Positions 2,948 through 14,585 of a stretch of DNA of 64,000 bases are shown here, in pieces; position 1 is the first letter of the stretch, and each line of letters opens with the position of its first letter. Position numbers and translations under genes: made by a program. The stretch comes from Candidatus Nezhaarchaeota archaeon (lineage in GTDB: Archaea > Thermoproteota > Methanomethylicia > Nezhaarchaeales > WYZ-LMO8). The stretch covers positions 190,966 to 254,965 of the forward strand of contig JANXDO010000002.1 in assembly GCA_025059375.1 (NCBI GenBank). The letters run 5' to 3'. The notes below the pieces were generated by a model. It saw nothing but the letters and a program-made list of their open reading frames with translations. It ran no database searches and was not told the origin of the DNA.

Positions 2948-4687
2948 GTGAAGTTGCATGATGCTGCTGATGACGTGGTTGAAACCGACGTACTTGTAGT
3001 TGGAGCTGGTGCTGCCGGGCTTTTAGCCTCTATTAAGGCTGATGACATGAATGTTGATGTCGCTGTGTGCTCTAAGGGGCTTTTCAGGAAGAGTGGTGCA
3101 ACCGTCATGTCTACTGGCGGGATGGAGGTAGCTATAGGTCATGGTGATCCTGCAGATAACCCTGATGTGCATTTCGTCGATACGGTTGTTGGAGGCGAGT
3201 ACATTAATGATCAGAGGCTAGTAGATGTTCTGACGAGAGAGGCTGTTGAGAGGCTTGTGGATCTTGAGAGGATTGGCATAGTATTCGAGAGGCAAGAGGA
3301 TGGGAGGCTGTTCCAATTTGCTCCTGGTGGCGCTCACGCTAGAGTCGTCATTCTCGGCGACTTAGCTGGATCTCACTACATGGTGGCACTTAACAGGGAG
3401 GTTATGAGGAGGAACATAAGAGTATTCGAGGAGGTTATGATAACCAATCTCCTAGCCACTAATAATGCAATTAGTGGAGCTGTCGGCTTAGACATAAAGA
3501 GAGGTGAGGTCATAGCCTTCAAGACTAAAGCTGTCGTCTTAGCGACTGGTGGTGCAGGTCAAATCTACAAGTATACGTCTAACCCAGTTCAAAATACTGG
3601 CGATGGGAGGGCCATGGCATATAGGGTTGGCGCTGAGCTGATAGACATGGAGATGGTGCAGTTTCACCCCACAGGACTTGCCTACCCTCCTGAGAAGCGT
3701 GGCACACTTGTAACAGAGGCTGTTAGAATGGTTGGAGCGCACTTGCTTAATGTTAAAGGTGAGCGCTTCATGAAGAGGTATGATCCACAGCGTATGGAGC
3801 TTGCTAAGAGGGATGTGGTTTCGAGGGCCATATGCAATGAGGTAAGAGAGGGTAGGGGGACCGAGTGGGGAGGTGTTTATTTAGATGCTAGCCACATACC
3901 CGAAGATGTAATCGAGCGTAGGCTCGGTGTAACTAGAAGGAAGATCCTCTTCTTAACGGGGATGGACATCGCTAAAGAGCCGATACACGTTTACCCCACA
4001 TGCCACTACTTCATGGGTGGTGTTAGAGCTGACCCTGACTGTTCAACTAGAGTTCCGGGGCTTTTTGTTGCTGGCGAGGAGATGGGAGGAGTTCATGGAG
4101 CCAATAGGCTTGGGGGCAACTCGATAACTACTCTGATAGTGTTTGGTTGGAGAGCTGGCATTAGTGCAGCTAAGTACGCTAAGAGCGTTGATTACAAGCC
4201 CCTAGATACAGCTGACGTCGCCAAGGAGAGAGATAGACTGTTTGGTCTCTTAAGTAAAAAGGACTACATATCCCCATCAGTAATTAGGAGGGAACTTCAG
4301 GAGGTTATGTGGAATAATGTTGGTATAGTGAGGACCGAGGAGTCAATGAAGGCTGCCTTAAGTGTAATAGAGAGGATGAAGATGAAGGACTTGCCTAGAG
4401 TTGGAGTGCCTGATGGTAGTAGGAGGTATAGAATGGATTGGGTAGAGGCAATAGAGCTTGAGAACATGCTCACGGTTTCAGAGATGGTTACCAGGGCAGC
4501 GATGTTCAGGAAGGAGAGTAGAGGGGCTCACATTAGAGACGATTATCCAAAGAAGGACGACGATAACTGGCTCGTTCATACCGTGATAGGGAGGGTTGAT
4601 GGTAGGATGAAGGTTTGGACTGAGCCTGTTGAGCTAATTAAAATTAAGCCTCCAGTTCATGGGGTGGTGATCTATGAGCCAAGATAG
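2948..4687 (+). CDS. tfrA: Fumarate reductase/succinate dehydrogenase flavoprotein, thiol:fumarate reductase-like subunit A
   Basis: Catalytic FAD subunit that interconverts fumarate and succinate. The dinucleotide fold VLVVGAGAAGLLAS is at the N-terminus, VLATGGAGQIYKYTSNP at about 200-215, and the substrate/capping region with FHPTG and RGTLVTEA follows. HGANRLGGNS near 395 is the usual FAD-binding signature. The His that binds FAD covalently in most succinate dehydrogenases (S-H-T-V) is replaced by Ala (S-G-A-T-V-M-S-T-G-G), so FAD is probably non-covalent, as in L-aspartate oxidase. The GTG start at 2948 follows AAGGAGGT. The end overlaps tfrB by 14 bp, so the two are co-translated. Assignment to Tfr rather than a membrane Sdh rests on the fused tfrB partner and the absence of membrane-anchor genes. 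Confidence 0.9.
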   Translation: MKLHDAADDVVETDVLVVGAGAAGLLASIKADDMNVDVAVCSKGLFRKSGATVMSTGGMEVAIGHGDPADNPDVHFVDTVVGGEYINDQRLVDVLTREAVERLVDLERIGIVFERQEDGRLFQFAPGGAHARVVILGDLAGSHYMVALNREVMRRNIRVFEEVMITNLLATNNAISGAVGLDIKRGEVIAFKTKAVVLATGGAGQIYKYTSNPVQNTGDGRAMAYRVGAELIDMEMVQFHPTGLAYPPEKRGTLVTEAVRMVGAHLLNVKGERFMKRYDPQRMELAKRDVVSRAICNEVREGRGTEWGGVYLDASHIPEDVIERRLGVTRRKILFLTGMDIAKEPIHVYPTCHYFMGGVRADPDCSTRVPGLFVAGEEMGGVHGANRLGGNSITTLIVFGWRAGISAAKYAKSVDYKPLDTADVAKERDRLFGLLSKKDYISPSVIRRELQEVMWNNVGIVRTEESMKAALSVIERMKMKDLPRVGVPDGSRRYRMDWVEAIELENMLTVSEMVTRAAMFRKESRGAHIRDDYPKKDDDNWLVHTVIGRVDGRMKVWTEPVELIKIKPPVHGVVIYEPR

Positions 4688-6242
4688 GCCCACGGTCAAG
4701 CTTAAAGTGTTCAGATATGATCCTACCATAGATGAGAAGCCGAGGTACGAGACTTACGAGGTGCCGTACTACCGTGGCATGAAAGTCCTTGACGCTCTAA
4801 TATATGTCCATGATAATTACGACTCGACTTTGGCATTCAGGTATAGCTGTAAGATATGGCGCTGTGGCTCGTGTGCAGTCATGGTTGACGGTGATGCCAA
4901 ACCGGCATGTAGGGCTGAGGTTGAGCCAGGCAGGGAATATGTAATTGAGCCCTTAGCGAATTTGCCTGTGATCAGGGATTTAGTAGTAGATTTTAGTAAG
5001 ATCTATAAGAGGTTTACAGCTCTTGGACCATACTTCGTGACTACGAAGCCTAGAGGTAATGAGCCTGCCAGGGTTCCAGGTCGGAAGTACGAGGACTTCA
5101 TAAAAGTAGCTGGATGCATTGAGTGTTGGTCCTGCATATCTGTGTGTCCAGCAGTGAAGGTTGCATGGGCAGAGATGGCTGGTCCAGGCTTGATCGTCGC
5201 TTTAGCTCAGTCCGCGTATAACCCACTTAATGAGCACGACGTTATACCGATAGCGTTCGCTCAAGGTCTCTACTCATGTACGACTTGTGGGAAGTGTGCT
5301 GAAGTTTGTCCAGAGGAGATAGCGATCCCCGAAGTCGTCTTTGAAAAGATGAGAGCTATTGCCGTTAATAGAGGCATAGGGCCTCTACCTGGACACTTAG
5401 TCCCTAAGGAGTTAATTGAGAAGACAGGCAGGTCGGTGGTGAAGAAGGAGACGCCGTTCCTTGAGACGATAGAGGTAGAGGTCTTTAAGCCGGCCGAGAA
5501 GACTAGGAGTGAGCCCATCGATAGAGTTGGCTACTTTACGGGATGTCTTGCTGACTACAGGCTTCAATCCGTTGCTAAGTCGACAGTGGACATACTGTTA
5601 AAACTTGGTGTTGAGGTTGTAGTGCCTAAAGATCAAGTATGCTGTGGCTCGCCGATGATCAGGATAGGTGCACTGAGCGCCCTCAACGACTTAGTCAAGA
5701 GGAATATAGCATCATTCGAAAGGTTTGGCGTCAAAACCATAGTGACTCCTTGCGCTGGATGTAGCTTAACGCTCAAGAAGAATTACCCTGAACTCGTGAA
5801 GAAGATTCTTGGTAGAGAGATGCCATTCAAAGTTTACCACCTATCGGAGTACATAGTTGATGTGTTGGGAGCAAAGATGAAGGACCTGAAAGAGGTCAAG
5901 ATGAAAGTTACGTGGCACGATCCATGCCACTTAAGAAGAGGACAAGGGATATACAAGGAGCCTCGTGAACTATTGACATCAATACCTGGTATACAGCTCA
6001 TAGAGATGAGGAAACCTGATCAGTGCTGTGGTGCTGGTGGAGGTGTTAGATCTGGTAAAAGAGAGCTTAGTGATCTCATAAGAGCCGACAAAATAAAGAT
6101 AATCTTAGAGACAGGAGCTGAAGCTGTGGTAACTGAATGTCCATTCTGTGTTATACAGATAAGAGATGCACTCGACGAAGCTGGCTACAAGGATATAAAT
6201 GTCTTCTACCTTGAAGACCTCATAAGAAAGGCAATGAAGTAG
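4674..6242 (+). CDS. tfrB: Thiol:fumarate reductase-like iron-sulfur subunit B (FrdB fused to HdrD-like CCG domains)
   Basis: Electron-transfer subunit partnering TfrA. The N-terminal half is FrdB-like: [2Fe-2S] Cys59, Cys64, Cys67 and Cys79, then two ferredoxin-type motifs (CIECWSCISVCP and CTTCGKCAEVCP). The C-terminal half carries two CCG domains (CCGSPM and CCGAGGG, each paired with an earlier or later Cys), as in heterodisulfide reductase HdrD. This fusion is known from the cytosolic methanogen thiol:fumarate reductase, which uses coenzyme M and coenzyme B thiols as donors. CCG domains in other enzymes serve other donors. Because no methanogenesis genes are present here, the physiological thiol or electron partner is open. 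Length (522) fits the fused form. Confidence 0.9.
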   Translation: MSQDRPTVKLKVFRYDPTIDEKPRYETYEVPYYRGMKVLDALIYVHDNYDSTLAFRYSCKIWRCGSCAVMVDGDAKPACRAEVEPGREYVIEPLANLPVIRDLVVDFSKIYKRFTALGPYFVTTKPRGNEPARVPGRKYEDFIKVAGCIECWSCISVCPAVKVAWAEMAGPGLIVALAQSAYNPLNEHDVIPIAFAQGLYSCTTCGKCAEVCPEEIAIPEVVFEKMRAIAVNRGIGPLPGHLVPKELIEKTGRSVVKKETPFLETIEVEVFKPAEKTRSEPIDRVGYFTGCLADYRLQSVAKSTVDILLKLGVEVVVPKDQVCCGSPMIRIGALSALNDLVKRNIASFERFGVKTIVTPCAGCSLTLKKNYPELVKKILGREMPFKVYHLSEYIVDVLGAKMKDLKEVKMKVTWHDPCHLRRGQGIYKEPRELLTSIPGIQLIEMRKPDQCCGAGGGVRSGKRELSDLIRADKIKIILETGAEAVVTECPFCVIQIRDALDEAGYKDINVFYLEDLIRKAMK

Positions 6243-6319: not shown

Positions 6320-7537
6320 TTACTCTGTCACCACATCAAGAATCTCCATTAAGTCATACATTTTCATGTGCGAGCCCGTCATTTGTATGGCATCGCTTAA
6401 GTTTCTGTAGCAGAATGGACATATTGAGGTCACTACTTCAGCCGAGGTCTTCTCAGCCTCTTTGATTCTATTTTTAGCTAGTGCTAGCGATACTTCAGCG
6501 TTGTACGATCTTAACCCTCCACCAGCACCGCAACACCATGAGTTTCTCCTATTCCTCTCCATTTCAATGAGCTCAGCACCGGGTATCTTTTTGATTATCT
6601 CTCTAGGTTGTTCGAATATCTCAGCCTTAATGTGTAGCAAGTGTCTACCAACGTGGCATGGATCATGATATGTTATCTTATGCTTAAATTCCTTCTTGAT
6701 GGAGAGCCTCCCTTCATTGATTAATTGAAGTGCAAGATCTATTGCGTGTCTTAATTCAAATTTCGGTTGTAGCCCGTGCAGTGGATAATCGATCTTAAAA
6801 GCTCTATAACAGCCGGAACATGAGAAGACTACTGTTTTAGCTCCAGTTTCTTCTATTGCCGCCACATTATGTTCAGCTAATTGTTTTGCTAGGTCCCTAT
6901 GTCCTATCCTCATCATTGGAGAGCCGCAGCACCATTCATTTCCATATAGCAAAGCAACGTTGATCCCAGCCTTTCTCAGCACTCTTACAGTTGCAGTCGC
7001 TATGTTCTTATGCCTGTAAGAAGCCGTGCAACCAACAAAGTATAGGACGTCACCCTTCGATGGTGGGGGCTCAATGCCTTCATGGACCCACTTAGTTCTA
7101 TCCTCATGTCTCTCAAGGTATGGGTTGTGCTCCTTTTCTGTCCATTCTAGTATCTGCTTGTGCCTGGGGCTTATTAAGCCGGCCTTGAATAAGTCGTGTC
7201 TGAAGGCCTCATATATTTCGACTTGATTGAGCATGTGCTCGCCCTTAAGCTTCGTCTGAGAGACGTAACACTTGTCCCAGCAGTTTCTACAAGTCGAGCA
7301 CGTGTACACTAATTCAGCTAGCTTCTCGTTTAGAGGTAATCGACCTTCTAGTACAAATCTTATCAGCATTAAGCGTCCTCTAGCACTGTAAGGCTCAAAA
7401 CCAGGCGTGGCATCTCCCTCTCTAAGTGGGCACACCTTGTATGCTGAGTCTCTATACCTTGCAAAGTCGCGACAATAGCCGCACCTAATACACCTATATA
7501 CTTGATCCTTAAACTGTTCTACAAACAGTCCGGACAT
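6320..7537 (-). CDS. GlcF/HdrD-like Fe-S oxidoreductase with two CCG domains
   Basis: Electron-transfer partner expected for the two flavoproteins just upstream in the same minus-strand run. The N-terminus has two Fe-S motifs, CIRCGYCRDF...CP and CSTCRNCWDKC. The second half has CCGSPMMRIGHRD with CSGC, and CCGAGGGLRS with CPFC, the two cysteine-rich domains of GlcF and HdrD. It is visibly related to the C-terminal half of TfrB, which it faces convergently. The ATG at 7537 is favoured by GGGTGGTGAT just upstream; a GTG four codons earlier is possible. It follows the 479-residue flavoprotein gene with a few bases between. The final electron acceptor cannot be read from the sequence. Confidence 0.87.
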   Translation of the reverse strand: MSGLFVEQFKDQVYRCIRCGYCRDFARYRDSAYKVCPLREGDATPGFEPYSARGRLMLIRFVLEGRLPLNEKLAELVYTCSTCRNCWDKCYVSQTKLKGEHMLNQVEIYEAFRHDLFKAGLISPRHKQILEWTEKEHNPYLERHEDRTKWVHEGIEPPPSKGDVLYFVGCTASYRHKNIATATVRVLRKAGINVALLYGNEWCCGSPMMRIGHRDLAKQLAEHNVAAIEETGAKTVVFSCSGCYRAFKIDYPLHGLQPKFELRHAIDLALQLINEGRLSIKKEFKHKITYHDPCHVGRHLLHIKAEIFEQPREIIKKIPGAELIEMERNRRNSWCCGAGGGLRSYNAEVSLALAKNRIKEAEKTSAEVVTSICPFCYRNLSDAIQMTGSHMKMYDLMEILDVVTE

Positions 7538-7553
7538 GACTATCACCACCCGC

Positions 7554-8993
7554 TCATAAAAGCAAGAGGCCCGGATTCATTATGCCATTAGGATCTAGTG
7601 CTCTCTTTATGGTCCTGAGAAAGTCAAAGTACACGCCAGTGTAAGCCTTAGCTACTCTCTCACCTATTACCTTGCCGAGCCAGTAGTGTATAGCGCCATG
7701 CCTTATTTCGTTCTCTATCAAGTCCCTCCAAATCCTTCTAACCCACTCCCTAGCCTCTTCATCCTCATCAAACCAATAGAGCACGTTCATTGGATCAAGA
7801 GTGTTCTCTACAACTAGTGAGGCAACATAGAAGTCTATCTTCTTCTCCTTCATTACATTCTTGTATTTTTCAAGCACTTCATACCATAACTTTCTGTGAG
7901 CTGGGTAGTCAAGGATTGGTACTTTATAGCAAGCTGTTGTCCATGCTTGCCCTAGAGGGCCTGTCCTAGGTTGCCACTCCCATGGCCTTGTGAAGTTCCA
8001 AGCTGGAAAGTCAGGTGGTATCTCCTTACCGTCATTCTTTTTCATTATATCGTCGGCTACCAACTTCTGTCTTTCAACCTCATCCTTGCTATAACCTTCT
8101 ATGTGAATGTGGACGGAGAATGGCACGCCTAATAATCCCCTAAAGCCGGCTTTACCGAAAATTGCGTTGAAGTCAGGCTCCAGGAGCACTATGTTTGTGG
8201 GTATGTGTCTCAATTGAAGCTCATAAATTGCTCTGCATGCCTTTTCTAGGTCCTGAAACGTGTAGCTACCAAATGCTTGTTCATCCGGCCAAGGCATGAT
8301 CTTGAGTGTCGCCTCAGTTTTCACGCCGAACACTCCTTGATCGCCAATGAATAGCCCGGTCATGTCTGGGCCGAAGCCCCACCTAGTAAACTTCTTAGCA
8401 AAGGGGTTAGCACCAGATCCCGTTCTTATGACGTCGCCTGTCGGCAAGACGACTTCTAAGCCAACTAGTATGTCGGCTACTGTTCCGTACTTAGCGCTTC
8501 CAAGACCAACACTTGCATTGCTTATTCCTCCACCTATCGTGGCTGCCCCACCGCTGAAGGGGCCATAGAAGGGTGTCCTGTACCCCTTCTTCTTTAACTC
8601 GTAAGTTAGTAGTGACCAGTTTATCCCTGCTTGAACCGTTACCGTCATCGATGCTTCGTCAAGCTCTACTATATTAGACATCCTAGTCATGTCGAGAGTT
8701 ATTCCACCGCTCCCTGGTGGAAGTCCTACTAAGTTTGCTCCTCCACCCCTAATGATGATTGGTGTCTTAAATCTATTGGCCACTTTCACGATCTCAGAGA
8801 CTTCCTCTGTTGAGGAAGGTCTCACAACTACATCGCTTAGCCTTGGAGGTTCCGGGCTTGCATCTCTAGAGTATGCTAGCCTGATGTTTAAGTCATCACT
8901 AATGAACTTCGAGCCAACAATGTTACTTAGGGCTTCTATAAGAGCTGAACGCGAGCTCATCATTTTCGTAGACCCGTAGAATGTGATGTACAT
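7554..8993 (-). CDS. FAD-linked oxidase (GlcD/PCMH family), second copy
   Basis: Flavoprotein with an N-terminal PCMH-type FAD domain: RGGGANLVGLPPGSGGITLD, then GPFSGGAATIGGGISNASVGLGSAKYGT, and the C-terminal end LDPNGIMNPGLLLL, which is typical of the GlcD/D-lactate dehydrogenase/vanillyl-alcohol-oxidase superfamily. It is much diverged from the neighbouring 493-residue copy and lacks that copy's GHLGDGNLH motif, so it probably has another substrate or is a partner subunit. The start could be 8993 or the double ATG about ten codons inside. It lies between a GlcD-like and a GlcF-like gene on one strand, which suggests one oxidase complex. Substrate unknown. Confidence 0.83.
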   Translation of the reverse strand: MYITFYGSTKMMSSRSALIEALSNIVGSKFISDDLNIRLAYSRDASPEPPRLSDVVVRPSSTEEVSEIVKVANRFKTPIIIRGGGANLVGLPPGSGGITLDMTRMSNIVELDEASMTVTVQAGINWSLLTYELKKKGYRTPFYGPFSGGAATIGGGISNASVGLGSAKYGTVADILVGLEVVLPTGDVIRTGSGANPFAKKFTRWGFGPDMTGLFIGDQGVFGVKTEATLKIMPWPDEQAFGSYTFQDLEKACRAIYELQLRHIPTNIVLLEPDFNAIFGKAGFRGLLGVPFSVHIHIEGYSKDEVERQKLVADDIMKKNDGKEIPPDFPAWNFTRPWEWQPRTGPLGQAWTTACYKVPILDYPAHRKLWYEVLEKYKNVMKEKKIDFYVASLVVENTLDPMNVLYWFDEDEEAREWVRRIWRDLIENEIRHGAIHYWLGKVIGERVAKAYTGVYFDFLRTIKRALDPNGIMNPGLLLL

Positions 8994-9033: not shown

Positions 9034-10515
9034 TTATGATTGTTGGGATTCAAGAAGCTTTTCAAGAAAATCCTTCTCGTCTTCAGGCCATAGCTTACCT
9101 GGGTTCATTATGTCATTTGGGTCAAACACCCTTTTTATTTCCCTCATGTACTCTATGAGGGGGCCATGCTGGAGCTTCATGTACGGTGCTCTTAGAGCCC
9201 CCACCCCGTGCTCTGCTGATATTGTCCCCCCTAACTCTACTACTTTTTGAGCTAACCTCTTAGTTAATGATATTGCCGCTTTAATGTCGACTTTCCTTTG
9301 AGGATTGATGTACCAGTTAATATGAAGGTTCCCATCACCTAAGTGCCCAAAGGGCATTATTGATATGTCAAGCTTCGAGCTCTCCTCTTCAGCGAACCTT
9401 AAATATTCAAGAATTCTGGAGAGGGGAAGACAAACATCGTGTATGTGGACTGCTTTGAGCTTCAAATCAGTTTCATCAAACATTCTCAGTATCGAGAAGC
9501 CAGCATAGTTCCTAGCGTACCATAGCTCCTCTCTGTCTCTCTCATCCCAGTAAATCTCAAGAGCTTCTGAGCTAGCTGATTTACACTCCTGGATTACTAC
9601 ATCTACTTGTTCTTCTACTTCACGCTTAAGACCGTCGACCTCAATCATTATCACGGCTTTGCATTCAGGGTACTTTAACCGCTTTAATACCTTGTTCATA
9701 GTCTCAACGTACTTCTCGGTTACAAGCTCTAAAGATGATGGAGTTATCTTTCTTAATATCAGTTGAGAAGCCTTTATTGCCCCTTCAAGGCTTGGGTACC
9801 CAGCTATTATCAATGCTCTATGTTCGGGTAAGGGTATTACCTTAAGCATGGCCTCGACTATTACTCCTAGAGTCCCTTCAGAGCCTACGAAAATCTGAGT
9901 TAAATTGTATCCAGAGGCATCTTTGAGGGCTCTTGCCCCTGTCTTTATTATCCTACCGCCAGGTAATACTACCCTGAGACCTAGCACCCAATCTCTTGTA
10001 GTCCCATACTTGCAGGCCCTAACGCCACTTGCATTGTTAGCTAGCATACCACCAATGGTGCACATATTAGCGCTTCCAGGTTCAGGGGGGAAGAATACGC
10101 CTTGCTCACGAAGCTCTTCTTCAAGATTTCTATGCACAGTACCGGGTTCAACAATTACGACTCTATCGTCAGGGTTTACCTCTTTGACGTTGTTCATCGA
10201 TGTGAGGTCAAGAACTATGCCACCCTTCACTGGTATGCAGTTACCACTTAAACTAGTTCCGGCACCTCTAGGTGTTACTGGGATCTTTTCTTTGTCTGCT
10301 AACTTAAGTACGTTGATGACGTCCTCATCACTTCTAGCTTTAACCACGACGTCAGGCATGAATCTAAGCTTATTGTTTAGCAGAGAGAATAGAGGTAAAG
10401 AGCCGCTATCCCAAGAATATGCATAGAGTGCGGCCTCATCCGTATAGACATTCTCACTTCCAACAAGATCCTCAAGGAGATTTATGATCCTTTTAGGTAT
10501 TGGCATCCTGAGCAC
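9034..10515 (-). CDS. glcD: FAD-linked 2-hydroxyacid oxidase/dehydrogenase (GlcD/D-lactate dehydrogenase-like)
   Basis: Expected to oxidise a D-2-hydroxyacid such as glycolate or D-lactate with bound FAD. Visible motifs are RGAGTSLSGNCIPVKGGIVLD and EPGSANMCTIGGMLANNASG in the FAD domain, and PFGHLGDGNLHINWYIN and SAEHGVG in the C-terminal domain, whose histidines form the metal/substrate site in GlcD relatives. LFDPNDIMNPGKLWP closes the protein. At 493 residues it has full family length. Transcribed first in the order GlcD-like, second flavoprotein, GlcF-like. The GTG at 10515 or the ATG at 10505 may start it. The CCG protein is the likely electron acceptor. Confidence 0.87.
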   Translation of the reverse strand: MLRMPIPKRIINLLEDLVGSENVYTDEAALYAYSWDSGSLPLFSLLNNKLRFMPDVVVKARSDEDVINVLKLADKEKIPVTPRGAGTSLSGNCIPVKGGIVLDLTSMNNVKEVNPDDRVVIVEPGTVHRNLEEELREQGVFFPPEPGSANMCTIGGMLANNASGVRACKYGTTRDWVLGLRVVLPGGRIIKTGARALKDASGYNLTQIFVGSEGTLGVIVEAMLKVIPLPEHRALIIAGYPSLEGAIKASQLILRKITPSSLELVTEKYVETMNKVLKRLKYPECKAVIMIEVDGLKREVEEQVDVVIQECKSASSEALEIYWDERDREELWYARNYAGFSILRMFDETDLKLKAVHIHDVCLPLSRILEYLRFAEEESSKLDISIMPFGHLGDGNLHINWYINPQRKVDIKAAISLTKRLAQKVVELGGTISAEHGVGALRAPYMKLQHGPLIEYMREIKRVFDPNDIMNPGKLWPEDEKDFLEKLLESQQS

Positions 10516-10615: not shown

Positions 10616-11497
10616 GTGTCTTGGATGAGGGTTGAAGACGTAAAGAAGGTTGCAATCATAGGTTTCGGGACTATGGGGAGCGGTATAGCCCAGGTATTTG
10701 CGCTAGCAGGCTATGAAGTTGTAGCTAGGGACGTAACTCGAGAGCTCCTGGACAGAGGTCTAGGCTTAATAAGGGATGGTCCATTTGGATTGAGCAAAGC
10801 TGTAGAGAAGGGAAGGATTAAGAAGGAGGATGCTGATGCTGCACTAGCAAGAATAAAAACGACCACTAGTCTGGCCGAGGCAGTTAAAGGCGTAGACATA
10901 GTTATTGAAGCTGTCTTTGAGAACTTAGACCTAAAGAGACAAGTATTTAAGGAGGTTGATGAGGTTGCACCTCCACATGCAATCATAGCTAGCAATACTT
11001 CCACCTTAAGTATAACCGCTCTAGCAGCTGTGACGAAGAGACCTGAGAAGGTTGTTGGGATGCACTTCTTTAACCCGGTTCCTGTGATGAGGCTAGTCGA
11101 GGTCGTGAGGGGGTTAGCCACCTCTGATGAGACTGTTGAGGTTGTGAGGCAGCTAGCTATAAAGTTGGGGAAGACTCCCATCGTGTGCAAGGACGTACCC
11201 GGATTCGTAGCCAATAGGGTAGCGTTCCCCTATCTTGTTGAAGCGATGAGGTTGTATGAAATGGGGGTTGCTTCAGCTCAAGATATAGATGCTGCAATGA
11301 AGTTAGGCTACAACTTTCCAATGGGTCCACTAGAGCTCATAGACTTAATAGGACTTGACGTCACTCTTGACGTCCTTGAAGCGCTATATAGAGAAACAGG
11401 CGATGATAAATTCTTCCCACCAACTGTTCTTAGGCAGATGGTTAGAGCTGGATGGCTAGGTCGAAAGACAGGTAGAGGTTTCTATAGTTACAAGTAG
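10616..11497 (+). CDS. 3-hydroxyacyl-CoA dehydrogenase (3-hydroxybutyryl-CoA dehydrogenase-like)
   Basis: Single-function NAD-dependent dehydrogenase converting 3-hydroxyacyl-CoA to 3-oxoacyl-CoA or the reverse. The N-terminal Rossmann motif is AIIGFGTMGSGIAQVFA, SNTSTLSI follows near 127, and catalytic His is in GMHFFNPVPVMRLVE. The C-terminal helical domain has KDVPGFVANRV and ends GWLGRKTGRGFYSYK, as in the short (about 280-residue) bacterial/archaeal enzymes without a fused hydratase. GTG start at 10616. It points towards the thiolase-fold gene, 73 bp away and convergent. With that neighbour it suggests acyl-CoA chain handling, but no enoyl-CoA hydratase or acyl-CoA dehydrogenase gene lies nearby. 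Confidence 0.9.
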   Translation: MSWMRVEDVKKVAIIGFGTMGSGIAQVFALAGYEVVARDVTRELLDRGLGLIRDGPFGLSKAVEKGRIKKEDADAALARIKTTTSLAEAVKGVDIVIEAVFENLDLKRQVFKEVDEVAPPHAIIASNTSTLSITALAAVTKRPEKVVGMHFFNPVPVMRLVEVVRGLATSDETVEVVRQLAIKLGKTPIVCKDVPGFVANRVAFPYLVEAMRLYEMGVASAQDIDAAMKLGYNFPMGPLELIDLIGLDVTLDVLEALYRETGDDKFFPPTVLRQMVRAGWLGRKTGRGFYSYK

Positions 11498-11569: not shown

Positions 11570-12811
11570 TTACCAACCTTTACTTAGTATTGTTGCAGCA
11601 TTGTTGCCTGCATAGCCGTATGTTTGGGCTAGAGCGTACTTTACCTCCTTCTTAACTTGTCGTTGACCCGCCTCTCCACGTAGCTGCCATACAAGCTCGC
11701 ACACCTGGGCTAAGCCCTGTGCTACGACGGCCTCTCCAAATGCCCCGATGCCGCCGCTTGGGCATGTTGGTATCTTGCCGGTTATGGGATCTAAGTCTCC
11801 TCGCCTTAGCATCTTCTCCGGCTCACCTGGATTCAGGTTTAGTATGCAGTCCAAGTATGCTAAATAGTGCCAGGAGCTATTGTCTGGCAACTCAATTAAG
11901 TCTATCTTGTCTGGCGTTATCCCTGCCATTCTGTAAACCCTCTCCACAGCATTCCTACTTTCACTTAGACTTGGTACCCCGGGCTTCTTGTATGAGCTCA
12001 AGTACGTTAACCTAACTGTTGGATCGCCGAAAGTTGGAGTCCCAACTGTGACTGCGTTTATGTAAACGGGCTTCTTGCATATCTTCTTAGCCTTCTCGTA
12101 TTCGCATACTATGACTGCAGCTGCTCCATCACTTGTAGAGCAAATCTCGTAGAGCCTAAGTGGATCGCAGACTATCGGTGACTTTAGCACCTCTTCAAGC
12201 GTGAAGGACCTCTGATATCTAGCGTAAGGGTTGTATGGTGCAGGCTTGCTCGTCACAACCTTAACTAATGCTAAGTCCTCTTCTGTAGTTCCAGCCTCAT
12301 ACATTCTTCTTCTGCACTCCATAGCCCAGTATGCTGGGTTTGTTTCGCCGCACATGACGAACCTCATGTAGTCTATGTCTGCTCTACCGTCGGTTGATTG
12401 AGGTCTAAAGAAGCCAAATGCAGATTTATCTGCTGCAACCGCAAGCGCTATGTCGCATTCGCCGCTTGCAACAGCTAAGGCTGCCTCCCTTAAGATTGAT
12501 TGCCCCGTAGCACATGCATTAGCTACACTGACTATCGGTATTCCTGTATACCCCATTAAGTTAGCTATTGCAGTCCCGCTCAATATGCCGTGTATACCAG
12601 CTTGCTGGTTGACCCATAGATATACGCCTGCCACCATGGCCTCAACTTGGCGCCAGCTGATCTTAGCATCGCTGAGCGCCTTAGCAATAGCTTCAACTGC
12701 CATCTCAGGCATTGTTTTATCGGGAAAAACATCGAGTTGCTTAGGATCGGGGTATCTCCCCCATCTTATCATTCCAACTCCTATGATCGCAACATCCCTC
12801 TCCATATTCAT
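11570..12811 (-). CDS. Thiolase-superfamily protein with degenerate active site (acetyltransferase/lipid-transfer-protein type)
   Basis: Thiolase-fold protein of the archaeal/SCP2 type. The nucleophile is kept (Cys100 in SVANACATGQ). Three other catalytic loops differ from working thiolases: the usual GHPIG after the SGG motif reads GEAVV, so the catalytic His becomes Glu; the usual HDAF reads PDNSSW; and the second Cys region reads TYGYAGNNAA. The surrounding frame (GLAQVCELVWQLRGEAG) is intact, so this is not gene decay. It is followed by a DUF35 gene on the same strand. Thiolase-DUF35 pairs occur in archaeal HMG-CoA synthesis, and Ltp2-DUF35 pairs occur in bacterial sterol side-chain retro-aldol cleavage. 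I infer a specialised carbon-carbon lyase or condensing role; substrate unknown. Confidence 0.8.
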   Translation of the reverse strand: MNMERDVAIIGVGMIRWGRYPDPKQLDVFPDKTMPEMAVEAIAKALSDAKISWRQVEAMVAGVYLWVNQQAGIHGILSGTAIANLMGYTGIPIVSVANACATGQSILREAALAVASGECDIALAVAADKSAFGFFRPQSTDGRADIDYMRFVMCGETNPAYWAMECRRRMYEAGTTEEDLALVKVVTSKPAPYNPYARYQRSFTLEEVLKSPIVCDPLRLYEICSTSDGAAAVIVCEYEKAKKICKKPVYINAVTVGTPTFGDPTVRLTYLSSYKKPGVPSLSESRNAVERVYRMAGITPDKIDLIELPDNSSWHYLAYLDCILNLNPGEPEKMLRRGDLDPITGKIPTCPSGGIGAFGEAVVAQGLAQVCELVWQLRGEAGQRQVKKEVKYALAQTYGYAGNNAATILSKGW

Positions 12812-12818
12812 AAACCCC

Positions 12819-13262
12819 CTATTTCTTGCATGCCTTTTCTACGGGTTTCCACATCCAGGTTATGTACTCTTTCTCTTCATCTTCGTAAAGCTTGCCGACC
12901 GTTAGCTCTACTTCCATGTCAAACCTTAAGTTTTCTGTCGTAGTTAGCATTCCTAAGACCCTTAGACCTTCAGGTAGATCTACCATGCCCACTGCATACG
13001 GCTTAAATGGCTCCATTTTAAATGGTGGGGGAGGGGGGTAGTATTGGATTGTCCAGCTCCATAACTTGCCTACACGACTTAACTGTACTGTCTCCATGTT
13101 CTGGGAGTTCTTCTCGCAATCTGGATTTGGACAGTAGGTAGCCTTTGGAAAGACTATTGCACCACACTTCTTACAACGAGAGGCTATGAGGGCTGGCTGG
13201 TCTGAAGGCCAGGTGAAGAGCCCCTCGACTATTGGAACCTTCTTCTTGACCTTCTCAGTCAT
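12819..13262 (-). CDS. DUF35 zinc-ribbon/OB-fold acyl-CoA-associated protein
   Basis: Small partner of thiolase-fold enzymes. It has an N-terminal rubredoxin-like zinc ribbon (CKKCGAIVFPKATYCPNPDC) and a C-terminal OB fold (GKLWSWTIQYY through VGMVDLPEGLRVLGML), the DUF35 layout. In archaea such proteins bridge thiolase and HMG-CoA synthase. In bacteria a DUF35 domain binds the Ltp2 aldolase. I start it at the ATG at 13262 (MTEKVKKK), because a TATAAG-like box about 35 bp upstream predicts a start of transcription close to it; an upstream in-frame start at 13313 would add 17 untypical residues. It precedes the thiolase-fold gene by 7 bp, so the two are probably one operon. Confidence 0.88.
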   Translation of the reverse strand: MTEKVKKKVPIVEGLFTWPSDQPALIASRCKKCGAIVFPKATYCPNPDCEKNSQNMETVQLSRVGKLWSWTIQYYPPPPPFKMEPFKPYAVGMVDLPEGLRVLGMLTTTENLRFDMEVELTVGKLYEDEEKEYITWMWKPVEKACKK

Positions 13263-13337
13263 GAGGACCACTCGATTAAGTAATAAGGTTTGTCTTATAA
13301 TGCTTACGATCACATGGCGATAATCAGGCTCTAGAGC

Positions 13338-14585
13338 TTATTGAGGGCCTGGAAGTATGTGACCTCTAATTGTTTGACAGACTACAGTCTTAAGACCTGC
13401 ATCTTCAAGTATTTGCTTTGCCTTCATCATCTCTTCGAAGCTTGGTCTTCGCAGGTATTGAGCCCTAAATTCAGGTCTGTAATCTAGCACGCAGACTTGA
13501 ATTGTTGGCTCTATGCTAGCTATTTTAAGTCCTATTTCGTACAGTTCATCAGTGCTCATGAAGGCCTTATTGTAAGGTATTCCAACCCCTATGAACACCT
13601 TTCCCCAATACTTATCAACTACATACTTAACGGTTGACCACTCATTCATCAACATCTTTTGAGCTAAGTTCCTATCTTTGATCCCAGTTATCTTCATGAA
13701 GGTCTCGACTCTTAGCCCCTTTACGTCAGGGCCTATGTCTGTCATCCCAGCTTCAACGAGCTCATCTATGTAGTCAGGTGTCAGTACGACTGCATTAGTA
13801 TCCACGTGGAACCTGGCCTTCTCATTGCGGTTTAAGCTTTTGAGCGACTTTATGAACTGGACTAGCCAGCGCCTATTGAGTGTCGATTCTCCACCGCTTA
13901 TAGCCATTCTGTCAACGCCATAGAGTCTCCTAGCTTCGGTTAGAAGGTAGGCAGCTTGAAGAGGTGTTAGAGGTGTATCGGTTGAACTATAAGTTATCTC
14001 CCAGTTTTGGCATGATGGACATCTAAGTATGCAGCCATGTGCAAAGCAAGCAACCTCTATGTACTTGTATAGAAAGCCTCTAGGCTTAAGCCAATATGGT
14101 GTCCCAACACCACCAACAGGATGTCCTTGAAAGCTTGAGACTATTCTAAGCGGAGGCTTCTCGGCTATTGTGTAGGGCTCTGTTATTATCTCCATCCCAT
14201 TTCGAACTGGAGTTATGCATGATGGCTTAAGCTCGCGATCAATTATTAAGGCGCAAGCCCAACAACCACCGGTTCTACATGGAGCATATATATCTCCCTC
14301 TCCTGGAAGACTCGAAACCTTAAAGCCTATGAGCTCCAAGGCTTTGAGGACTGTTATTCCTCGATGTACTCGATGTTTCTCACCATCAACCTTTATGGTC
14401 ACATATTCATCAGGAGTCTCTACCACAATGAACTCTTTAGCTTCGTAAGGGCAGGCCCATACACAGCTTCCGCATCCAGTGCAGTGAGGCTCACCAGGAC
14501 ATGCTATGTACGTCCTACAGAAACCACACTCAACACATTTACCCTTCAATGTCGTAGCTTTAAGTAACTTCACAAAAGTACTCAA
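13338..14585 (-). CDS. Radical SAM protein fused to dicluster ferredoxin and [2Fe-2S] ferredoxin domains
   Basis: Predicted radical SAM enzyme with an unusual set of electron-transfer domains. Residues 17-29 (C17, C20, C23, C29) and 35-45 (C35, C38, C41, C45) form two [4Fe-4S] motifs. Residues 60-125 look like a plant-type beta-grasp [2Fe-2S] domain with C103-x4-C108-x2-C111 and C123. The radical SAM site is C185-x3-C189-x2-C192 followed by QNWEI, as in PflA/AmmeMemoRadiSam enzymes, with AISGGE at about 235. Four clusters are thus predicted in one chain. The natural substrate is unknown, and neither AMMECR1 nor Memo genes are nearby. It sits just upstream, on the same strand, of the DUF35/thiolase pair, with 75 bp between. 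Confidence 0.85.
   Translation of the reverse strand: MSTFVKLLKATTLKGKCVECGFCRTYIACPGEPHCTGCGSCVWACPYEAKEFIVVETPDEYVTIKVDGEKHRVHRGITVLKALELIGFKVSSLPGEGDIYAPCRTGGCWACALIIDRELKPSCITPVRNGMEIITEPYTIAEKPPLRIVSSFQGHPVGGVGTPYWLKPRGFLYKYIEVACFAHGCILRCPSCQNWEITYSSTDTPLTPLQAAYLLTEARRLYGVDRMAISGGESTLNRRWLVQFIKSLKSLNRNEKARFHVDTNAVVLTPDYIDELVEAGMTDIGPDVKGLRVETFMKITGIKDRNLAQKMLMNEWSTVKYVVDKYWGKVFIGVGIPYNKAFMSTDELYEIGLKIASIEPTIQVCVLDYRPEFRAQYLRRPSFEEMMKAKQILEDAGLKTVVCQTIRGHILPGPQ

Follow-up and report, generated by a model that had tools for sequence, protein, structure and literature searches.

A Nezhaarchaeal thiolase-fold protein belongs to a mostly bacterial family with glutamate at the place of a catalytic histidine

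The 64,000-nucleotide stretch of DNA analysed here (the window) encodes a thiolase-fold protein, P0001, that is a real and conserved case of functional divergence and does not stand alone but belongs to a clade. Among the features of true thiolases, the nucleophile cysteine is present (Cys100) and the histidines of the HDxF and GHPxG motifs are absent, their places being taken by Pro309 and Glu360. We favour, at about even confidence, the reading that P0001 is a DUF35-dependent retro-aldolase (an aldol-lyase, possibly run as an aldolase) of 3-hydroxyacyl-CoAs. The routine annotation of a thiolase-fold protein is acetyl-CoA acetyltransferase. Since the clade to which P0001 belongs lacks both thiolase histidines, name-based pathway maps of uncultivated mcr-bearing archaea would probably be wrong at this step.

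The coordinates of P0001, its catalytic loops and its neighbours are collected in Table 1; residues are numbered from MNMERD, and the conserved start is probably Met3. P0001 matched the Pfam families Thiolase_N (6e-10) and Thiolase_C_1 (5e-21), and its best PDB matches by phmmer were true thiolases, headed by an archaeal acetoacetyl-CoA thiolase (6esq, 2.8e-44). Alignment with 6esq, SCP2 thiolases and BbsB was clear at the catalytic loops. An earlier note on this DNA had claimed that the nucleophile Cys100 survives, that GHPIG has become GEAVV with a change of the catalytic His to Glu, and that HDAF has become PDNSSW. All of this was borne out: the cysteine is aligned as claimed, both with these proteins and in a wider alignment of 63 homologs, while the GHP histidine of 6esq aligns with Glu360 and its HD histidine with Pro309. 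The note had also read the region of the second cysteine as YGYAGNN; the loop is correctly read, and the residue at the cysteine place itself is to be corrected to Thr397 (TYGYAGN versus NVGGTG). Less weight falls on this third change than on the other two, since the second cysteine is also absent from many DUF35-type thiolases. Besides Cys100, P0001 retains Asp310 and Gly399.

Table 1. Positions of P0001, its catalytic loops and neighbouring genes in the window
Feature	Positions	Strand	Basis or remark
Thiolase-fold protein P0001	11570..12811	minus (12811 down to 11570)	ORF, 413 aa; Pfam, PDB phmmer, alignment
Cys100 codon, thiolase nucleophile place	12512..12514	-	invariant across Glu-bearing rows
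PDNSSW, residues 309-314, place of HDxF motif	11870..11887	-	alignment
GEAVV, residues 359-363, place of GHPxG motif	11723..11737	-	alignment; catalytic His to Glu360
YGYAGNN, residues 398-404, oxyanion-glycine (Gly399) loop at second-Cys region	11600..11620	-	alignment
DUF35 partner (zf-ChsH2 zinc ribbon and OB_ChsH2_C; PF01796, PF12172)	12819..13313	-	Pfam
GlcD-like FAD protein 2	7554..8993	-	in synteny with P0001-DUF35 in four genomes; a fifth has a remnant
CCG-domain Fe-S protein (GlpC/HdrD/TfrB-like)	6320..7549	-	syntenic with GlcD-like 2
GlcD-like FAD protein 1	9034..10515	-	at the locus in 3 of 5 genomes
3-hydroxyacyl-CoA dehydrogenase, divergent	10616..11497	+	at the locus in 3 of 5 genomes

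Within the 63-homolog alignment, 39 rows carry Cys-His-His and 12 carry Cys with Glu, and Cys100 is invariant in 12 of the latter 12. Both histidine places are altered in the Glu-bearing clades, except that the paralog L013 keeps the first. The two histidine columns lie 50 residues apart throughout, and 51 apart only in P0001 and its four orthologs; this constant spacing makes the motif assignment secure. An alignment slip hiding a histidine was ruled out by the same spacing together with the composition of P0001, which contains only two histidines, H74 and H315.

The five Nezhaarchaeal orthologs show no variation in loops 95-104, 150-165, 307-316 and 395-405, and loop 352-366 is invariant at 13 of its 15 positions. 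The dN/dS ratio was 0.020-0.035 in the three ortholog pairs with unsaturated dS. These data indicate that P0001 is a working protein, and decay to a pseudogene was ruled out by the ratios, the invariant loops and synteny. The proposal that the altered loops reflect functional divergence rather than decay is thus supported by purifying selection and loop conservation. Orthologs with 87-92% identity were present in five of the six genomes of the family, and no further ones were found among the other genomes examined (300 genomes sampled from the phylum, the order (9) and the class (40)); a scan of genome contigs with one query sequence matched only the Nezhaarchaeal orthologs. The sixth family genome (G175, 75% complete) carries L013, with 37-39% identity. 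P0001 is encoded in a MAG of 1.47 Mb, to which, among named organisms, Ca. Nezhaarchaeota are most closely related. mcrA was found in this genome and in three relatives, and the host archaeon is heat-loving and probably methane-making.

The best family model for P0001, matched over its full length, was NCBIfam NF004715 / PRK06059 'lipid-transfer protein', which we take to be the Ltp3 type of sterol degraders. P0001 scored 361.5 bits, below the curated cut-off of 424 bits, and the accepted bacterial members L041 and L042 scored 460 and 692 bits. The nearest relatives outside Nezhaarchaea, in a bacterial sampling made up of plasmid records, were proteins of Sphingopyxis FD7 (40%) and Nonomuraea (38%), both of which exceed this cut-off. 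P0001 has Cys, Asp, Glu360, Asn158, Gln365 and the DUF35 partner in common with L041 and L042, but identity is about 40%, and P0001 has Pro-Asp-Asn-Ser where members have Ala-Asp-Asn-Ser or Tyr-Asp-Leu-Ser. We found no biochemical test of the catalytic set of this mostly bacterial family, whose members are probably enzymes that cut carbon-carbon bonds, in the literature.

In a 63-protein tree built with the four catalytic stretches removed, eight proteins with the GEA motif, including L041 and L042, formed one clade with 100/100 support. All members have Cys, Asp and Glu at the catalytic places, and the residues that mark the clade include Trp17, Asn158, Arg198, Phe358, Glu360, Ala361 and Gln365. 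The GEA clade sits among otherwise bacterial rows, apart from 44 mostly archaeal rows without the Glu. Forcing its Nezhaarchaeal members to the archaeal side cost 67 log units (p-AU 0.005), in a tree with several long branches and two rows of odd composition that drew a program warning, and with groups picked for testing after the motifs had been seen. An archaeal thiolase rewritten in place was ruled out by this test: the Glu is a clade-wide trait common to bacteria and not private to this archaeon. The archaeal complex of acetoacetyl-CoA thiolase, DUF35 protein and HMG-CoA synthase in 6esq resembles P0001 as its top PDB sequence match and in its DUF35 architecture, but the GHP and HD histidines are kept there, and the tree and AU test set P0001 apart from the sampled archaeal thiolases. 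A second Glu clade, with the motifs GEPxG and QDTx, comprises L044, L048, L090 and L091 from Mycobacterium, Streptomyces, Novosphingobium and Rhodococcus plasmid records. A single origin of Glu in the two clades gave p-AU 0.209, so that one origin and two were indistinguishable. In the three annotated records of the GEPxG clade, acyl-CoA dehydrogenase genes lie close by, together with a DUF35 gene, a MaoC gene or both.

The DUF35 gene, whose true start likely lies near 13262, ends 7 bases before the P0001 gene. The thiolase-fold gene has a DUF35 gene beside it in each of the five orthologs, as it does at L013, L041 and L042, and this adjacency in orthologs and clade-mates supports the pairing with DUF35 that had been proposed. 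Upstream of the DUF35 gene, the window encodes a radical SAM protein (13338-14585) that carries ferredoxin-like domains (Fer4, Fer2_4) at its N-terminus. The same adjacency was seen in G216 and was absent from G103, G121 and G204; in G103 a LarA-like racemase gene adjoins DUF35. An isopropylmalate/tartrate-family dehydrogenase is encoded near the locus in four genomes. In G121 (L050:7853-9069), the genes for GlcD-like protein 2 and the CCG-domain protein are broken and partly deleted, through either real loss or an assembly fault, and the adjoining thiolase-fold and DUF35 genes are intact. Synteny of the P0001-DUF35 pair with the GlcD flavoenzyme and Fe-S protein may hint at a 2-oxo or 2-hydroxy acid. 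For other mcr-bearing archaea, however, a role of GlcD with HdrD in CoM/CoB regeneration has been proposed (PMC6783470), and the neighbours may accordingly belong to redox metabolism and not to the P0001 reaction. TfrA/TfrB-like fumarate reductase genes lie at 2948-6242 of the window (TfrB 540 bits against a cut-off of 385; TfrA 604 against 718). Outside the window, on contig 3 (G000, L063:3880-7561), the sole MaoC gene found in the P0001 genome adjoins a 2-hydroxyacyl-CoA dehydratase-like set with two HGD-D subunits and a BcrAD_BadFG activator.

Ltp2 and Sal, which combine a thiolase fold with DUF35, are proven aldolases, and the two thiolase histidine places are those repurposed in the known aldolases (PMC12329534). 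The catalytic pair is Tyr294/Tyr344 in TcLtp2 and Tyr302/Cys304 in CtSal, where Gln352 occupies the Tyr344 place and Gly that of the nucleophile (PMC12329534). Mapped by the 50-residue spacing and alignment, not by structural overlay, Tyr294/Tyr344 of Ltp2 and Tyr302/Gln352 of Sal fall on the thiolase histidine places and hence on Pro309/Glu360 of P0001. The steroid aldolase Ltp2-ChsH2(DUF35) (6ok1) thus resembles P0001 in its fold, its DUF35 partner and the change of both histidine places, but differs in the residues found there and gave only 89 bits by phmmer. The bile acid aldolase Sal-Shy(DUF35) (9myr) likewise shares the fold and DUF35, and has the hydratase-aldolase layout seen in clade-mates of P0001; it differs in its Tyr302/Cys304 (YDCY) and nucleophile-place Gly, where P0001 has Pro309/Asn311 and Cys100 (PMC12329534). 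Judged by its residues, P0001 is neither Ltp2 nor Sal, as their catalytic tyrosines are absent. The suggestion in the earlier note of an Ltp2-like lyase or an unusual condensing enzyme pointed to the right field and fails in the likeness to Ltp2 itself; of the two, the lyase is favoured by the clade in which P0001 falls and by how the operons of its clade-mates are laid out. Atf1 with the stand-alone DUF35 protein ChsH4, an aldolase identified genetically in Mycolicibacterium neoaurum (PMC10398937), is a further thiolase-annotated enzyme of this kind, likened to P0001 by description; it differs in having a steroid substrate.

In the ChsE-ChsH-Ltp2 pathway, the acyl-CoA is dehydrogenated and hydrated and then cleaved by the aldolase (PMC12502768, PMC6678751). 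This logic of hydratase followed by aldolase is mirrored on the 4.9 kb contig of L013 (acyl-CoA dehydrogenase / GEA protein / DUF35 / MaoC) and in Sphingopyxis (MaoC, a weak match / a protein without assigned family / DUF35 / GEA protein). An aldol-lyase is the reading that these MaoC/DUF35 operons, the 100/100 GEA clade and the precedent of Ltp2 and Sal together appear to favour. Such an enzyme would cut the Calpha-Cbeta bond of a 3-hydroxyacyl-CoA, releasing an acyl-CoA together with an aldehyde, a ketone or a 2-oxo acid. The acyl-CoA site would be completed by DUF35, in the manner of Ltp2-ChsH2 and Sal-Shy. Glu360, aligned with the Ltp2 catalytic acid Tyr344, would act as acid/base on the enolate or the 3-OH, the oxyanion hole may be formed by Asn158 and the Gly399 amide, and Cys100 could be a second acid/base or hold the substrate. 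More speculatively, the substrate might carry a carboxylate at C3, with the 2-oxo acid product linked to the neighbouring GlcD-like/Fe-S 2-hydroxyacid dehydrogenase. No citrate synthase family gene was found in the six genomes, which leaves an insufficient basis for assigning a citryl-CoA lyase.

Several observations count against a lyase. The P0001 gene has no MaoC neighbour at the window locus, a 3-hydroxyacyl-CoA dehydrogenase gene being adjacent in three genomes instead, and the MaoC match at L041 is weak. The invariance of Cys100, where CtSal has Gly, fits a covalent acyl-enzyme. A Claisen-type enzyme, which we consider possible though on balance unlikely, would be acylated on Cys100 as thiolases are, with Glu360 replacing His as the base that activates the cysteine or deprotonates the acceptor; P0001 would then act on an unusual 3-oxoacyl-CoA or acceptor, as a thiolase or a condensing enzyme. 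It would account for a cysteine retained throughout the Glu clades and for the adjacent dehydrogenase, which would make a 3-oxoacyl-CoA, and agrees with true thiolases being the best PDB matches. However, both oxyanion/base histidines are gone, the same genome encodes other DUF35-type thiolases that keep Cys, His and His (L068, L069, L070), and clade-mates sit with hydratases, with no 3-hydroxyacyl-CoA dehydrogenase gene on the contig of L013.

Ltp3 and Ltp4 have been described as a heteromeric aldol-lyase (PMC6678751), and by this precedent P0001 could be a scaffold of little catalytic power, or one of the two halves of a heteromer, that binds acyl-CoA and DUF35 and leaves the chemistry to another subunit. 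We regard this as improbable, since strong purifying selection has kept the polar residues of the catalytic places unchanged and the P0001 cluster contains no second thiolase-fold gene. That P0001 is an ordinary thiolase, its normal site restored by H74 or H315 from elsewhere, is very improbable: both are invariant in the five orthologs and H74 could enter the site from a loop, but elsewhere in the Glu clades neither is conserved, and the alignment around GEA is free of gaps.

For the favoured aldol-lyase, a broader proposal can be made, tentatively and as a rather unlikely one in its full form. The Glu clade would make up an additional catalytic class of DUF35-dependent C-C lyases or aldolases with the thiolase fold, in which a Cys-Asn-Glu set replaces Tyr-Tyr (Ltp2) or Tyr-Cys (Sal). 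In mcr-bearing archaea, and outside steroid metabolism, these enzymes would act on acyl-CoAs that are branched or carboxylated, in coupling with a GlcD/Fe-S 2-hydroxyacid dehydrogenase. If the lyase reading is true, the thiolase fold became a C-C lyase by at least one catalytic solution beyond the two described, and did so in an anaerobic archaeal setting.

Other thiolase homologs with altered sites were also observed. Outside the window, in the same genome, the thiolase of the mevalonate operon (HMG-CoA synthase / thiolase / DUF35; L067:4358-5515, G000:C1:120357-121514) has Gly for the nucleophile Cys (SGGASG), YDDY for HDxF and GAP for GHP in each of the five Nezhaarchaeal orthologs (identity about 71%), and its nearest homologs in the phylum (L033, L034, L036) keep all three catalytic residues. 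Its Tyr and Gly are reminiscent of the Sal aldolase site and raise the question of the acetoacetyl-CoA source there. Five archaeal DUF35-type homologs (L014, L015, L019, L035, L045) keep HDAF and GHP and have Pro, Ala or Gly for the nucleophile Cys. In a small Thermoproteota clade (L018, L021, L022, L025, L027), the GHP histidine is replaced by Asn (GNPIG) and the Cys is kept.
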